Shown: piece by piece, positions 29,147 to 35,590 of the stretch | Numbering within the stretch: the stretch's first letter is position 1 | Layout: each line of letters opens with the position of its first letter | DNA from: Mesoterricola silvestris | GTDB taxonomy: Bacteria; Acidobacteriota; Holophagae; Holophagales; Holophagaceae | Assembly: GCF_030295405.1 (NCBI RefSeq) | Contig: NZ_AP027080.1 | Span: 4,014,001-4,078,000 of the forward strand | Direction: 5' to 3' | Length of the DNA: 64,000 bases | The notes under the pieces: generated by a model | Databases searched by the model: none | Seen by the model: only the letters and a program-made list of their open reading frames with translations | What the model was told of the DNA's origin: nothing | Program-made: the position numbers and the translations under genes

Positions 29147-30415
29147 TCACAGGAGTTCCGCCCGGAGCGCGGCGGCGTCCGCGGGCAGGCTCCGGGAAAG
29201 GACGGGGCGGTCCCGCACCTCCAGGAGGGCCGGGGGCAGGGGGACGCGGATGCCCAGCTCCGCCTCCAGGGTCTCCCGGAATTTCGCGGGGTGGGCCGTG
29301 GCCAGGAAAACCCCCGTCTCCCCGGGGCGCAGGTTCCCCGCCAGCACGCCGTGGGCCACCGCGGCGTGGGGGTCCGGGAGGTAGCCGGCCCCGTGGAGTT
29401 CGCGCATGGAATCCAGGGTCCCCGCGTCCGTGAGGCTCCCCCGGCGCAGGGCGCCGCGCATGGCCTCCAGGTCGCCCTGGAACAGCGCGTGGATGCGCTC
29501 CCAGTTGCTGGGCGCGCCCACGTCCATGGCGTTGGAGAGGGTGGCCACGGAGGCCCGGGGGCGGTAGACGCCGGTCTCCAGGAAGTCCGGGACGGTGCGG
29601 TTGGCGTTGGTGGCCACCACGAAGGCCTTCACGGGCAGGCCCACGCGCTTGGCCAGGAGGCCCGCGTAGAGGTTCCCGAAATTCCCGGAGGGCACGGCGA
29701 TCACCGGGGCCTCGCCGGTGCGGGCCACCGCCTCGAAATAGTAGGTCACCTGGGCCAGGAGCCGGGCGATGTTGATGCTGTTGGCCGAGGTCAGGCCCAG
29801 GCGCGCCGCCAGATCCGCGTCCCCGAAGGCGCCCTTCACCAGGGCCTGGCAGTCGTCGAAGGAGCCCTCCACCGCGAAGGTGCGGACATTGTCCCCCAGG
29901 GTGGCGAACTGCCGCTCCTGGAGGGGCGACACGCGTCCGGCGGGGTACAGCACCACCACCTGGAAGCCCGGGAGGCCCAGGAAGGCGCTGGCCACCGCGG
30001 CCCCCGTGTCCCCGGAGGTGGCGGTGAGCACGGTGCGGCGCCTCCCGTCCCCGCGCGCCGCCAGGGCCAGCATGCGCGCCAGGAACCGCGCGCCGAAATC
30101 CTTGAAGGCCAGGGTTGGCCCGTGGAAGAGCTCCAGGGCGTGCACGCCCTCGCGCACCCGCACCACCGGAACGGGGAAGTCCAGGGCGGAGCCCACCGCC
30201 TCCTCCACCTCGGCCCGGCTGAACTCGTCGCCCAGGAAGCGGTGGAGGATCTCCGCGGAGCGGGCCTGGAAGCCCATGGCCAGGAGCGCCTCCACGTCCC
30301 GGAAGCAGGGCACGGGCTCGGGGACCCAGAGGCCCCCGCCCGGGGCCATGCCGCACTGGATGGCCTCCCGGAAGGTGGCGCGGTTCCTGGGATCGCGGGT
30401 GTTCACGAGTCGCAT
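29147..30415 (-). CDS. thrC: Threonine synthase
   Basis: 422 residues from the ATG at 30415, with GGGAGG 6 nt upstream. The PLP-binding lysine lies in TLAFKDFGARFLARML. TATSGDTGAAVASAF and VPSGNFGNLYAGLLAKRVGL are the cofactor phosphate and family motifs. It converts O-phospho-L-homoserine to threonine. It is the last gene of the thrA-thrB-thrC operon and starts 1 nt after the thrB stop. Confidence 0.96.
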   Translation of the reverse strand: MRLVNTRDPRNRATFREAIQCGMAPGGGLWVPEPVPCFRDVEALLAMGFQARSAEILHRFLGDEFSRAEVEEAVGSALDFPVPVVRVREGVHALELFHGPTLAFKDFGARFLARMLALAARGDGRRRTVLTATSGDTGAAVASAFLGLPGFQVVVLYPAGRVSPLQERQFATLGDNVRTFAVEGSFDDCQALVKGAFGDADLAARLGLTSANSINIARLLAQVTYYFEAVARTGEAPVIAVPSGNFGNLYAGLLAKRVGLPVKAFVVATNANRTVPDFLETGVYRPRASVATLSNAMDVGAPSNWERIHALFQGDLEAMRGALRRGSLTDAGTLDSMRELHGAGYLPDPHAAVAHGVLAGNLRPGETGVFLATAHPAKFRETLEAELGIRVPLPPALLEVRDRPVLSRSLPADAAALRAELL

Positions 30416-30416
30416 G

Positions 30417-31358
30417 CTAGACCTCCCTTGCGCCGCGGGTGTCCAGGCCGCAGATCCAGGACGTGCTGGGCAGGCTGGCCTCCCCGAAGGCGCCGCGGAT
30501 GGCGGCGGCCACGGCGGGGGCCTCCCTCTCGGGCGCCACGGCGAAGACCGAGGGCCCCGATCCCGACAGGCTGAAGCCCAGGGCCCCGGCCCCGAGGGCC
30601 GCGGCCTTGGCCGCGGGGAATCCCGGAACCAGCGCCGCCCGGAAGGGTTCGGCCAGGGGATCCCGCAGGCAGCGTCCCAGCAGGGCCCGGTCCCCGGTGT
30701 GCAGGGCATGCACGAAGCCCGCGAGGTTGCCGGCGAAGCCCACCGCCCCCGCCAGGGGCACCTCCCCGGGAAGCACGGCGCGGCTGGCGGCGGTGGGCAG
30801 CTGCCATTCCGGATGCACCACCACGAAGACCAGGTCCCCCGGCCAGGGCAGTTCCCGGGCCGTGGAGCGCCCGTCCCGGCCGGGCACCACCATGCGCAGC
30901 CCGCCCAGGAGGGAGGGCGCCACGTTGTCCAGGTGGCCGGCGCCGCTGTAGACGCCCTCGGCCCGGCCCGCCAGGGCCAGGAGCTCGGGGCCCTCCAGGG
31001 GGAAGCCCGCGGCCCGCTGGAAGGCGGCCAGGGCCGCCACCACGGAGCTGGCGCTGGAGCCCAGGCCGCTGTTCACGGGGAGCCGCTTGTCCAGCGTCAC
31101 GGCCCAGGACGCGCCGGCGCCGGCGCGCTCCCGGAAGAGCTCCAGGGCCCGGAGCACGAGGTTGGGCCGCCCGTCCCCGGCGAGCATGGGCGCGAAGGCC
31201 CCCTCCAGGACGAAGCGGTCCTCGGGGGCCGGCTCCACCGTGACGAGATCGCCCAGCAGCGTCCCGTCCAGGGGCGCCAGGGCCGCCCCCAGCAGGTCGA
31301 AGCCCGCGGCGACGTTGCCGATGCTGGCCGGCGCGAAGACCCGGATGGCCGGGCTCAA
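30417..31358 (-). CDS. thrB: Homoserine kinase (GHMP family)
   Basis: 313 residues from a TTG start that overlaps the thrA stop as TTGA, with GAGG 8 nt upstream. The GHMP ATP-binding motif is [20 protein letters not shown]. The N-terminal [18 protein letters not shown] and C-terminal [15 protein letters not shown] are characteristic. It phosphorylates homoserine to feed thrC. The tight overlap indicates translational coupling to thrA. Confidence 0.95.
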
Positions 31359-33787
31359 TGGACCAGCCTCAGCACGTCGGAGAGAACGCCGGCGGCCGTC
31401 ACCTGGGCGCCGGCCCCGTAGCCGCGCACGACCATGGGATAGGGGCTGTAGCGCTCCGTGAAGAAGGCGAAGGCGTTCTCCCCGCCCTTGACCTGGGCGA
31501 GGGGATGGTAGGCGTCCACCACCCGCAGGCCTACGCTGCAGCCCTCCGGGGTGAAGCCGCCGATGTAGCGCAGGAAGCCCCCCTGCGCCGCGCGCCGGGC
31601 GAAGTCCTCGTCCAGGCGGGGCAGGCGCTCCATGAAGGCGTCCACGTCCCCGCCGGCGTCGAAGTCCGGGGGCAGCAGGCCCTCCACGGCCACGTCCTCC
31701 AGCTCCAGCTCCAGGCCGATCTCCCGGGCCAGGATGAGGAGCTTGCGGGCCACGTCCATGCCGCTCAGGTCGTCCCGGGGATCGGGCTCCGTGAAGCCCT
31801 GGGCCCGGGCCTGGGCCACCGCCCGGGACAGGGGCACGCCCTCGCCCACCGCGCCCAGGATGAAGGACAGCGAGCCCGAAAGGATGCCCTCGAAGCGCTG
31901 CACCACGTCCCCGGTCTTCACCAGGTTCTGCAGGGTGTCCACCACCGGCAGGCCCGCGCCCACGTTGGTCTCGTAGAGGAACCGCCGGTGCAGGCGCCGG
32001 CAGCGCTCCCGCAGGTCCTTGTGGAAGGCGGTGGAGGCGCTGTTGGCCTTCTTGTTGGCGGCCACCAGGTGGAAGCCCGCCTCCAGGATCTCGGGGTAGC
32101 GCGCGGCGAGCTCGGCGCTGCTGGTGCAGTCCACGAAGACGGGCATGGCCGGGCGGTCGCGGCGCACCGAAGCCAGCACCTGGTCCAGGTCCGTGGGCAC
32201 CGCGGCCGCGTCGAAGGCCTCCCGCCACCGGGCGAGGTCCCGGATGCCGTGGGCCATGCGGCGGCTGGTGGCCAGGGTGTGGACGCGGATGTCCAGGCCC
32301 TGCTCCCGGAACCGGGGCTCCTGCCCCTGGATCTGCTCCAGGAGGCACCCGCCGACGTTGCCCGCCCCGAAGAGCACCAGGTCCAGAGTCCCGGCGGTGC
32401 GGAAGAAGCGCCGGTGCACGTGGGGCATGGCCCGGCGCCCGTCCTCCTCCCGCACCACGGCGGAGATGATGCGCTCGCTGGAGCCCTGGGCGATGGCCAC
32501 CACGTTGCAGTCCACGTCCGCCAGCGCATCGAAGAAGGTGCCGGCGATCCCGGGCCGCAGGTGCATGCCGTCGCCCACGATGCTGAGGATGGACACGCCC
32601 TCCTGGACCTCCACGGCGTCCACGAGCCCCGCGGCGCGCTCCATGCGGAAGGCCTCCTCCAGCACCGCCGCGCCCCGGGCGCCGTCCTCCCGGCGCAGGC
32701 AGAGGCAGATGGCCAGCTCGGAGGAGCACTGGCTGATGAAGACCACCGAAAGGTCGCGCCGGGCCAGGGCGGAGAAGGCCCGGGAGGCCATGCCGGGCAC
32801 CCCGGCCATGCCCGGGCCGGAGATGTTGAGCATCACCAGGGAGGGCAGGAAGGAGATGCCCCGGACCCCCAGGGGCGGCGCGGCCACGCCGTCCCGCACC
32901 AGGGTGCCGGGATGCGACGGCTTGAAGGTGCTGGCCACCCGGATGGGGATGGCCCGGGAGCGCACCGGGGCGATGGTCTTGGGATGCAGCACCTTCGAGC
33001 CGAAGAAGGCCAGCTCCATGGCCTCCTCGAAGCTCACTTCCGGCAGGGGGAAGGCCTCGGGGACGATGCGGGGGTCCGCGCTGAAGACCCCTTCCACGTC
33101 CGTCCAGATCTCCACCAGGTCCGCGTCCAGGGCCGCGGCCGCCAGAGCCGCGGTGTAGTCCGAGCCCCCCCGGCCCAGGGAGAGGATCTTGCCCTGGGCG
33201 TCGCCCCCGAAGAACCCCGGGAGCACCCACAGGGCGGCGTCCCCATCCCGCTCGGCCTGGAAGCGCGCGCGGATCTCCCCGGGAAGGGGCCGGCCCTCCA
33301 TGGGTTCGCCCTCCAGGAGGATGTACCGCCGGGGGTCCAGGTACCGGGGTTCCAGCCCGCGGGCCCGGAGCAGGGCCGTGAGGATGGCGCAGGAGGCCCG
33401 TTCCCCCAGGCTGGAGAGGGCCGCCAGCACCGAGGAGGAGCATTCGCCCACCAGGGCCACGCCCTGGAGGATGCGGGCGCACTCCGCGGCCAGGAGCTCC
33501 AGTTCCGCCCCCAGCGCCTCCGCCCCCGGGCCCAGGTCCGGCCCCAGGTCGGCGGCCACCTGCCGGTGCCGGGCCAGGAAGGCCTCGGGGGCCCCGGCGG
33601 GGCCGCCGGGGGCCGCCACCAGGAGATCCGTGATGCCGGCCAGGGCCGAGGCCACCAGGCAGACCCGGTCCGTTTCCAGGGCCGCGGCCACCAGGCCGGC
33701 CACGTCGCGCATGCGGGCGGCGTCCCGGACGCTGGTGCCGCCGAATTTCATGACGCGTAGGGGGACGGATGGGGGCCGGCTGTTCAT
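31355..33787 (-). CDS. thrA: Bifunctional aspartokinase / homoserine dehydrogenase
   Basis: 810 residues. The aspartokinase part (about 1-300) has [15 protein letters not shown] and [15 protein letters not shown]. Two ACT-type regulatory regions follow (about 310-465; [40 protein letters not shown]). The homoserine dehydrogenase part (about 470-810) has [16 protein letters not shown] and [14 protein letters not shown]. It catalyses the first and third steps of threonine synthesis, probably with feedback control through the ACT domains. GAGG precedes the ATG at 33787. It sits directly behind a threonine attenuator. Confidence 0.96.
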
Positions 33788-33800
33788 GGGGTCCTCGACA

Positions 33801-33835
33801 AATGCGAAAAGCCCCGCGTCCTTGTGGCGCGGGGC
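33801..33835 (-). terminator. thr attenuator terminator hairpin
   Basis: Read on the minus strand, GCCCCGCG and CGCGGGGC (33835-33828 and 33818-33811) form an 8-bp stem with a 9-nt loop, followed by TTTTCGCATT. It lies between the leader peptide stop and the thrA start. The 5' arm CCCCGCGCC is perfectly complementary over 9 nt to GGCGCGGGG inside the leader reading frame (33868-33876), which gives a ready antiterminator. Confidence 0.82.
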
Positions 33836-33858
33836 GGAAAGTGGAAGTGATGATCCGA

Positions 33859-33906
33859 CTAAGCCGTCCCCGCGCCGGGATGGGTACCGGTCGTGGTGGT
33901 GGTCAT
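33859..33906 (-). CDS. thrL: Threonine operon leader peptide
   Basis: A 15-codon frame, [15 protein letters not shown], with stop TAG at 33859-33861. Seven of 15 residues are threonine, five of them consecutive. It precedes a terminator hairpin and thrA, the arrangement of classical thr attenuation. The start has no strong Shine-Dalgarno sequence, which is the main weakness. A threonyl-tRNA shortage would stall the ribosome on the Thr codons and free the GGCGCGGGG segment to sequester the terminator arm. Confidence 0.82.
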
Positions 33907-33993
33907 AATGGGGAAACCCGCGTTCAGGGCGCCGCTTCCGGCGCGGGGGCCGGGGGAGGGGCGCAAGCCTGGGAACGGGGACATCATCTGCCT

Positions 33994-34022
33994 ACCATCC
34001 CCGAAACAGCCTTCCAGGTCAA
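33994..34022 (-). promoter_or_regulatory. Possible thr operon promoter
   Basis: On the minus strand TTGACC (34022-34017) is followed after 17 nt by GATGGT (33999-33994). The -35 is good and the -10 poor. It lies about 90 bp before the leader peptide. Motif match only. Confidence 0.35.
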
Positions 34023-34030
34023 GGAAAGGA

Positions 34031-35590
34031 TCACTCCCCCCGGAGAAAGCGGAGGCGCTTCGCGGCTTCCCGGGTCGCCGAAAGTTCCATCCCGCCCGTC
34101 ACCCGCACCTTGGCCCGGCCCCCGAAGAGGGAGCGGATGTCCTCCACCGCCTGGGGGTTCAGGAGGACGGTGCGCTGGATCCGCACGAAGAGCACCTCGT
34201 TGAAGGCCAGTTCCACCTCCTCGAAGGAACGCCAGGGGGTGGCCTGGCGCTGGCCTGCCACCCAGGCGTGCACCTTCCCGTCGGCCACCTCGAAATGGGT
34301 GGTGACCTCCAGATCCACCGCGGGGGCCTCACCGGGCCGGGGCGACGGCGCCTGGACGGGATCGGGGGCGGGCGCCGCCGCCGGCCGGGGCCGGTGGACG
34401 GGCTCCCCATGGGCCTTGGGCTCCGCGTGGGGCGCGGGCGGGAGCGGGCTGGGCCGGGGCGGCACGGGGGCGGCGGGCCGGGGCGGCGTCTCCCTGGGGG
34501 CCTTCGGGACCTCGGCCGCCTTGCGCCGCTCCAGTTCCCCGGCCTTGCGGGCGGAGGCGTTCCTCCGGCGCTCGGCCCGGGACAGGTGCCTGGGGGGCTC
34601 GGGCGGAACGGGCTTGGCCGGGGCGGACCGGGCGGGGAGGCTCTGGACCGGCGGGGGCTTGGGGGGGGCGGGGAGGGGTTGGGCCGGCGGGGGCTGGGGG
34701 AGGGCGGGCTCCACCCGCGGGGTTTCCGGGCGGTGGACGAGGGCCAGGGCCGTGAGGTCCAGGCCCCCCAGGCCGTGCTCCTCGGCGAGAACCACCTGCC
34801 GCCGCAGGGGCGCCACCATGGGAAGGTCCATCCCCAGGTCCTGGGAGGCCCGCAGGATCAGGTCCAGGTCCTTGCCGGCCAGGGCCAGGGTCTGGTCGGA
34901 GGGCTCGTGGTCCCGGCGCACCATCAGGCCCCCGAAGGCGTCCATGGGCGGCGACTTGAGCAGGCCGAGGTTGAGCAGGCGCAGGTAGTCCGCGGAGGCG
35001 AAGCCGGCCTTCTCCCCGAAGGCCAGGACCTCCCCGAGGGTCTCCACCATGGCCACCGTGAGGAGGTTGGCCCCCAGCTTGAGGGCGTGGGCCAGCTCGG
35101 CCCGGGTCCCCACCCGGGTGATGCCCCGCCCCAGGGCCTCCAGGGCCACCAGGCAACGGTTGACCTGGGTCTCCGGCCCCGCGGCCAGGATCCAGAGGCG
35201 CCGGGAGACGGCGTCGCTGGGCTTGCCCAGGACCGGGGCGGCCACGTAGCCCTGCCCCGCCGCCGCGTGGGCTTCGGCCAGGCGCAGGGACAGGTCCACG
35301 CCGATGGTGCTCATGCAGAGGTGGATGGCCCCGTGGCCCAGTTCCTCCAGGAGCCCGCCGGGGCCCCAGGTGATGGCCTCCTCCGCCGCGTCCCCGGACA
35401 CCATGGTCAGGGCCACCTGGGCCGTGGACACGGCGTCGGACACGGTGGGGCTGATGCGCACGCCGGCGGCGGCGAGGGCCTCGGCCCGCTCCGGGGTGCG
35501 GTTCCAGAGGGTCACCTCATGGCCCAGCTCGATGAGATTCCGGGCCATGGGGGCGCCCATCCGGCCCAGCCCGAGGATGGTGATTCGCAT
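34031..35590 (-). CDS. Beta-hydroxyacid dehydrogenase fused to a C-terminal LytTR DNA-binding domain
   Basis: 519 residues in one uninterrupted frame, with AGGAG before the ATG. Residues of about 1-290 are a complete 3-hydroxyisobutyrate/6-phosphogluconate-type dehydrogenase. It has the Rossmann motif ILGLGRMGAPMARNLIELGH, substrate segment GYVAAPVLGKPSDA and the catalytic-lysine region HALKLGANLLTVAMVETLGE. About 295-420 is a Pro/Ala/Arg linker. About 425-515 matches a LytTR domain (ELAFNEVLFVRIQRTVLLNP, FGGRAKVRVTGGMELSATRE). LytTR domains normally sit behind receiver domains in response regulators. The combination suggests a regulator that reads a metabolite or NAD(P)H, or a moonlighting enzyme. 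It lies between the cytochrome gene and the thr leader. Confidence 0.85.
   Translation of the reverse strand: MRITILGLGRMGAPMARNLIELGHEVTLWNRTPERAEALAAAGVRISPTVSDAVSTAQVALTMVSGDAAEEAITWGPGGLLEELGHGAIHLCMSTIGVDLSLRLAEAHAAAGQGYVAAPVLGKPSDAVSRRLWILAAGPETQVNRCLVALEALGRGITRVGTRAELAHALKLGANLLTVAMVETLGEVLAFGEKAGFASADYLRLLNLGLLKSPPMDAFGGLMVRRDHEPSDQTLALAGKDLDLILRASQDLGMDLPMVAPLRRQVVLAEEHGLGGLDLTALALVHRPETPRVEPALPQPPPAQPLPAPPKPPPVQSLPARSAPAKPVPPEPPRHLSRAERRRNASARKAGELERRKAAEVPKAPRETPPRPAAPVPPRPSPLPPAPHAEPKAHGEPVHRPRPAAAPAPDPVQAPSPRPGEAPAVDLEVTTHFEVADGKVHAWVAGQRQATPWRSFEEVELAFNEVLFVRIQRTVLLNPQAVEDIRSLFGGRAKVRVTGGMELSATREAAKRLRFLRGE

Follow-up and report, generated by a model that had tools for sequence, protein, structure and literature searches.

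A putative thrABC attenuator with a predicted leaderless leader in Mesoterricola silvestris and its Holophagaceae relatives

Results

A threonine operon lies behind a Thr-rich frame and an intrinsic terminator

The window, a 64,000-nucleotide stretch of Mesoterricola silvestris contig NZ_AP027080.1, carries the threonine-making operon thrA-thrB-thrC on its minus strand, with all three genes scoring over curated cut-offs (Table 1). The thrA product contains Pfam AA_kinase, ACT, and Homoserine_dh domains. Along the minus strand, a run of Thr codons (33903–33883) is followed by the leader stop codon (33861–33859), a terminator hairpin, TTTT, and the start of thrA at 33787, so that the leader stop and thrA are 71 nt apart with the hairpin in between. 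Six of seven consecutive codons encode Thr (33903–33889 plus 33885–33883), and 33906–33859 reads ATG ACC ACC ACC ACG ACC GGT ACC CAT CCC GGC GCG GGG ACG GCT TAG. An earlier note, drawn from the sequence alone, had described a 15-codon ORF, a terminator ending in TTTT, and then thrA, all of which are present at these positions and on this strand. The GC-rich hairpin comprises GCCCCGCGCC (33835–33826), the loop ACAAG (33825–33821), and GACGCGGGGC (33820–33811); its U tract has four U only, and many relatives carry longer ones.

Table 1. Features of the thrABC locus (window coordinates)
Feature	Coordinates	Strand	Basis
thrA, bifunctional aspartate kinase/homoserine dehydrogenase I	31355–33787	minus	NF006959, 926 bits (cut-off 726)
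thrB, homoserine kinase (start approximate)	30417–31343	minus	TIGR00191 and NF002288, above cut-off
thrC, threonine synthase (start inferred)	29147–30415	minus	TIGR00260, 285 bits, above cut-off
Predicted leader promoter, −35 element TTGACC	34017–34022	minus	TTGAC kept upstream of Holophagaceae leaders
−10-like element GATGGT, 17 nt past −35	33994–33999	minus	Alignment on ATG; weak match to TATAAT
Leader ORF, most likely extent (42 codons)	33859–33987	minus	Promoter-ATG frame and openness, 45/45 Holophagaceae loci
15-codon ORF (3′ part of leader; earlier note)	33859–33906	minus	Read directly in sequence
Sensing codons ACC ACC ACC ACG ACC GGT ACC (Thr codons 29–33 and 35 of long leader)	33883–33903	minus	Read directly
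Antiterminator 5′ arm GGCGCGGGG, inside leader ORF	33868–33876	minus	Near-copy of terminator 3′ arm
CCCCGCGCC, common to antiterminator and terminator 5′ arm	33826–33834	minus	Sequence, fold
Terminator hairpin GCCCCGCGCC-ACAAG-GACGCGGGGC	33811–33835	minus	Fold
U tract TTTT after hairpin	33807–33810	minus	Read directly

Two neighboring frames deserve mention. The gene directly upstream (34031–35590, minus) stops 8 nt short of the leader promoter's −35 element and encodes a 3-hydroxyisobutyrate-dehydrogenase-like enzyme (NAD_binding_2, NAD_binding_11) with a LytTR DNA-binding domain fused at its C terminus (Pfam 25.4 bits vs. cut-off 22.6). In addition, the strand opposite thrA holds an open frame of 800 aa (31358–33760, plus), a high-GC effect. 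Because this frame misled orientation by open frame, the thrA loci that we gathered from relatives and named genomes were oriented by alignment to ThrA before their upstream regions were read.

The leader probably spans 42 codons and is predicted to be leaderless

The leader frame stays open beyond the 15-codon ORF, up to ATGATG at 33987–33982. Across Holophagaceae, an ATG lies 35 nt (40 loci) or 36 nt (5 loci) from the first base of the promoter TTGACN, and in the window ATG 33987 lies at 35 nt. This promoter-spaced ATG shares its reading frame with the Thr run in 45/45 loci, over 12 different leader lengths from 34 to 48 codons, and the leader frame is open in 45/45 loci vs. 3/45 and 24/45 for the two other frames. 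No Shine-Dalgarno-like motif precedes it in 42/45 loci, nor in the window. The −10-like element is mostly GATGAT or GAAGAT in relatives, and the GATGGT of the window matches the sigma-70 consensus poorly. Usual sigma-70 geometry, applied to the conserved TTGAC, puts the predicted transcription start at the A of the promoter-spaced ATG. Promoter spacing and frame thus lead us to predict a leaderless leader mRNA whose first base (+1) is the A of ATG 33987, and the leader probably comprises 42 codons from that position rather than 15, with the second ATG (33984) as a possible start codon. It is the fixed promoter-to-ATG spacing that makes the prediction of a leaderless leader a clear one. Leaderless genes have been predicted at 9.7–19.4% in three acidobacterial genomes (PMC3160421).

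Substitutions in the N-terminal 24 leader codons are distributed 51/41/43 by codon position, with no third-position excess, so that purifying selection on the leader peptide is not seen; what is kept is frame and position.

The same attenuator could also be translated as the 15-codon ORF of the earlier note, from the internal ATG 33906 and behind a long 5′ untranslated region. This ATG opens directly into the Thr run, and L002 and L003, the two closest relatives, retain it, but it has no Shine-Dalgarno-like sequence, internal ATGs near the Thr run are missing in many relatives (L019, L024, and L038, among others), and at all 45 loci the frame ahead of it is open and matches that of the promoter-spaced ATG. 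We consider the short leader improbable.

Folding models switch between stalled and passed ribosomes

The leader segment GGCGCGGGG (33876–33868) is perfectly complementary over 9 nt to CCCCGCGCC (33834–33826), a direct check confirming what the earlier note had observed. We modeled the competing structures with the bases under the ribosome held unpaired, in the complete window RNA at equilibrium. With the A site on codons 29–33 the probability of the terminator is ≤0.12, whereas at codon 35 or later it is ~0.88, and the move from codon 33 to codon 35 alone raises it from 0.01 to 0.88. The switch is stable for assumed ribosome edges from +9 to +15, with intermediate values only close to the border. 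In the ribosome-free window RNA antitermination is favored (P(terminator) 0.18), and the antiterminator has a fold energy of −32.6 vs. −27.5 kcal/mol; most relatives instead default to the terminator. Several relatives (e.g., L005, L018, L022, and L059) and E. coli thrL never switch in this model. Since E. coli thrL is a known attenuator, such failures among relatives are no evidence against attenuation, the model alone is no proof, and we dropped complete-RNA equilibrium folding as a sole criterion.

It was replaced by a cotranscriptional model in which the RNA ends immediately upstream of the terminator 3′ arm. Over 47 loci the terminator 5′ arm is sequestered with a ribosome stalled at Thr codons (median of maxima 0.88) and free with a ribosome at the stop codon (0.08), and the drop lies no more than a few codons away from the last of the Thr codons. 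Sequestration is at least 0.6 at the Thr stall and at most 0.2 at the stop, our strict criterion, in 40/47 scored loci, and E. coli thrL has the same profile.

These results bear out much of the earlier note: in the model the window RNA switches between stalled and passed ribosome, GGCGCGGGG being free upon a Thr stall and covered by a ribosome at the stop, and a threonine attenuator before thrA is supported by operon, conservation, and folding model. Its antiterminator arm and its acidobacterial host also stand, the closest named relatives being Holophagaceae and Geothrix, the best-known genus among them. The 15-codon leader does not, and neither do the labels "compact" and "minimal two-state," since the competition between terminator and antiterminator is like that in E. 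coli, the leader probably has 42 vs. 21 amino acids, and most relatives default to the terminator without a ribosome in the complete-RNA model.

Leaders and terminators are conserved in Holophagaceae and recur in other phyla

Nearly every fused thrA of Holophagaceae, as well as those of Myxococcaceae, has a Thr-rich leader and then a terminator ahead of it, and the earlier note's reservation that close relatives might lack them falls away. We found them in 49 distinct Holophagaceae sequences (with doubtful terminator calls in L050, L052, and L054) and in 12 Myxococcaceae-type sequences; four further Holophagaceae genomes have the leader (G002, G022, G028, and G032, of which G028 and G032 are possibly duplicates of L080 and L082). 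Single loci with leader and terminator occur in a Shewanella-labelled sequence (L083) and, weakly, in Eisenbacteria (L093) and another acidobacterium (L109). Divergent Holophagaceae ThrA types retain the leader, and L007, L010, and L025 keep leader and hairpin with few Thr codons. Conversely, fused thrA lacks a Thr leader with terminator in one genome (G014) and in another family of the same class (~40% identity).

On the ThrA tree, leader-bearing sequences, including that of E. coli, require 4 changes vs. 13 in shuffles. A single origin of the leader is compatible with this tree but not required by it, and any homology of the RNAs between phyla is conjectural. It is conceivable, although we hold it to be rather doubtful, that the attenuator is an ancient component of the fused-thrA operon, traveling with it between Acidobacteriota, Myxococcota, Pseudomonadota, and Eiseniibacteriota instead of arising anew each time, and that the leaderless Holophagaceae leader senses several aspartate-family products. 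One genome of the same genus (G003) carries a divergent ThrA (L030, 53% identity) that groups with an Eisenbacteria sequence in the tree and has its own Thr leader. This suggests that the operon was transferred together with its attenuator, or else the contig is mis-binned (8% contamination).

Codon content was compared in the sensing segment, defined as the 12 codons ahead of the conserved 3′ part, with enrichment expressed relative to ThrA. Across relatives Thr is enriched ten-fold, Asn five-fold, Met 3.6-fold, and Ile two-fold, and Lys is absent from these codons; the sensing codons of the window are Thr only, whereas a Geothrix leader (L021), for example, reads MTGMTGMTN. The enrichment agrees with the homoserine branch for Thr, Ile, and Met, but Asn lies off that branch. 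One hypothesis is that Holophagaceae leaders sense Thr, Ile, Met, and perhaps Asn instead of Thr alone, and we put it no higher because of the position of Asn and because A/U-rich codons may simply keep the segment unfolded.

As another alternative, the terminator might be constitutive or controlled by a different signal, with the Thr-rich ORF incidental or acting on translation only (e.g., by reinitiation at thrA). Intrinsic terminators are frequent between genes and the U tract of the window is short. However, this terminator sits between the leader and the first gene of the operon, Thr is enriched ten-fold in the sensing segment, relatives from different phyla carry a copy of the terminator 3′ arm directly after their Thr codons, and 71 nt with an intervening hairpin is too far for simple reinitiation. 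A terminator independent of the Thr codons is accordingly very unlikely in our view.

Chance, by which high GC content would by itself yield GC-rich inverted repeats next to a stretch rich in Thr, can be set aside: the window alone has modest arm complementarity (P = 0.035 vs. shuffles) and a folding z-score of −1.8, but five Thr codons, GGGG, and CCCCGC, spaced as they are here, have a single match in the 4.99 Mb closed genome, at this locus (reversed control genome, 0 matches), and conservation across the family and beyond already contradicts it. Over 29 representative loci, the last ten codons of the leader are more complementary to the terminator 5′ arm than dinucleotide shuffles are (mean z 2.1, Fisher P = 2e-14). 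On average, a locus's own arms also pair better than swapped ones (22.7 vs. 20.3).

Discussion

A probable ribosome-mediated attenuator of thrABC

We interpret the locus, with a probability of roughly 0.9, as a ribosome-mediated transcription attenuator of thrABC with a 42-codon leader that is predicted to be leaderless. Its parts, their order, their conservation, and the operon come from sequence and comparison, and from them we infer how transcription start, leaderless initiation, stalling, and termination would proceed. Transcription would begin at or within one or two bases of ATG 33987, and ribosomes would load on the leaderless mRNA and a ribosome would translate all 42 codons unless it is held up. 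Under a shortage of charged tRNA-Thr, it would stall on codons 29–33 (33903–33889) with its leading edge short of GGCGCGGGG, which would then be free to pair with CCCCGCGCC, blocking the terminator and letting RNA polymerase read on into thrA. With ample threonine, the ribosome would clear the Thr codons and cover GGCGCGGGG, such that the hairpin (33835–33811) with its U tract could form and transcription would end before thrA.

The locus has a Thr-codon-rich ORF before thrABC, an intrinsic terminator between leader and thrA, an antiterminator that is mutually exclusive with the terminator and predicted to be freed by stalling, and conservation in related genomes; on every defining feature that sequence can test, it is of the leader-peptide attenuator kind. 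The mechanism would be common to the leader-peptide attenuators (trp, his, leu, ilv, thr, and phe) of Proteobacteria, Actinobacteria, and Firmicutes. Like E. coli thrL (Rfam RF00506, Thr_leader), it combines a Thr-rich leader peptide, a terminator, and a thrABC operon with fused ThrA, and the 3′ end of its leader ORF holds an antiterminator arm that is a copy of the terminator 3′ arm. Unlike E. coli thrL (21 aa), the window leader probably has 42 amino acids, is predicted to be leaderless, and is GC-rich, and leaders in relatives carry Met and Asn beside Thr and Ile. The Rfam Thr_leader score in the window is 21.0 bits, under the gathering cut-off of 55, so by score the leader is no member of that family. 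Among eight relatives scored, only the Shewanella-labelled locus scores at the leader (43.8 bits), and the listed members of Thr_leader include none of the tested Holophagaceae or Myxococcus relatives; we rejected the model as a detector since it falls below threshold for this group.

Leaderless attenuator leaders have been found by transcript mapping for trpL of Sinorhizobium meliloti (PMC7298713) and for several leader peptides of Streptomyces lividans, whose thrL precedes thrS (PMC8079986). The window leader would resemble these in an attenuator mRNA that begins at the start codon, here a prediction from promoter spacing and frame, and differs from them in phylum and operon. The principle is known and apparently new in Acidobacteriota, although a 2010 survey (Lopatovskaya et al., cited in PMC4833913) might already list cases from Acidobacteria or Myxococcus. 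Classical leader-peptide attenuation would thereby extend to Acidobacteriota with a case conserved family-wide, and its many divergent leaders form a natural data set on the tolerated distance between Thr run and antiterminator arm.

Other candidate attenuators in the same genome

By the same test, no leader-peptide attenuators were found before ilvB and leuA in relatives, nor before the pheA-type gene in the genome of the window. Two further candidates do occur in that genome. Before trpE (L131; G000:C1 near 2,937,000, minus), a Trp-rich, GTG-started ORF with TWNWCWWPQ at ~3046–2896 (minus, L131 coordinates) is followed by a terminator whose 3′ arm is repeated by GTGGGC near the ORF end; similar Trp leaders are present in L127, L129, L130, and L132–L138. 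Before hisG (L157:1375–1485; G000:C1 near 1,078,500), a His-rich leader MNQPIHHHAHSPHPG precedes a terminator, and His leaders also occur in L155 and in a different family of the class (L151, L154, and L158). With the trp and his cases the mechanism appears elsewhere in the genome of the window, and they suggest leader-peptide attenuation as a general mode of amino-acid control in Acidobacteriota.
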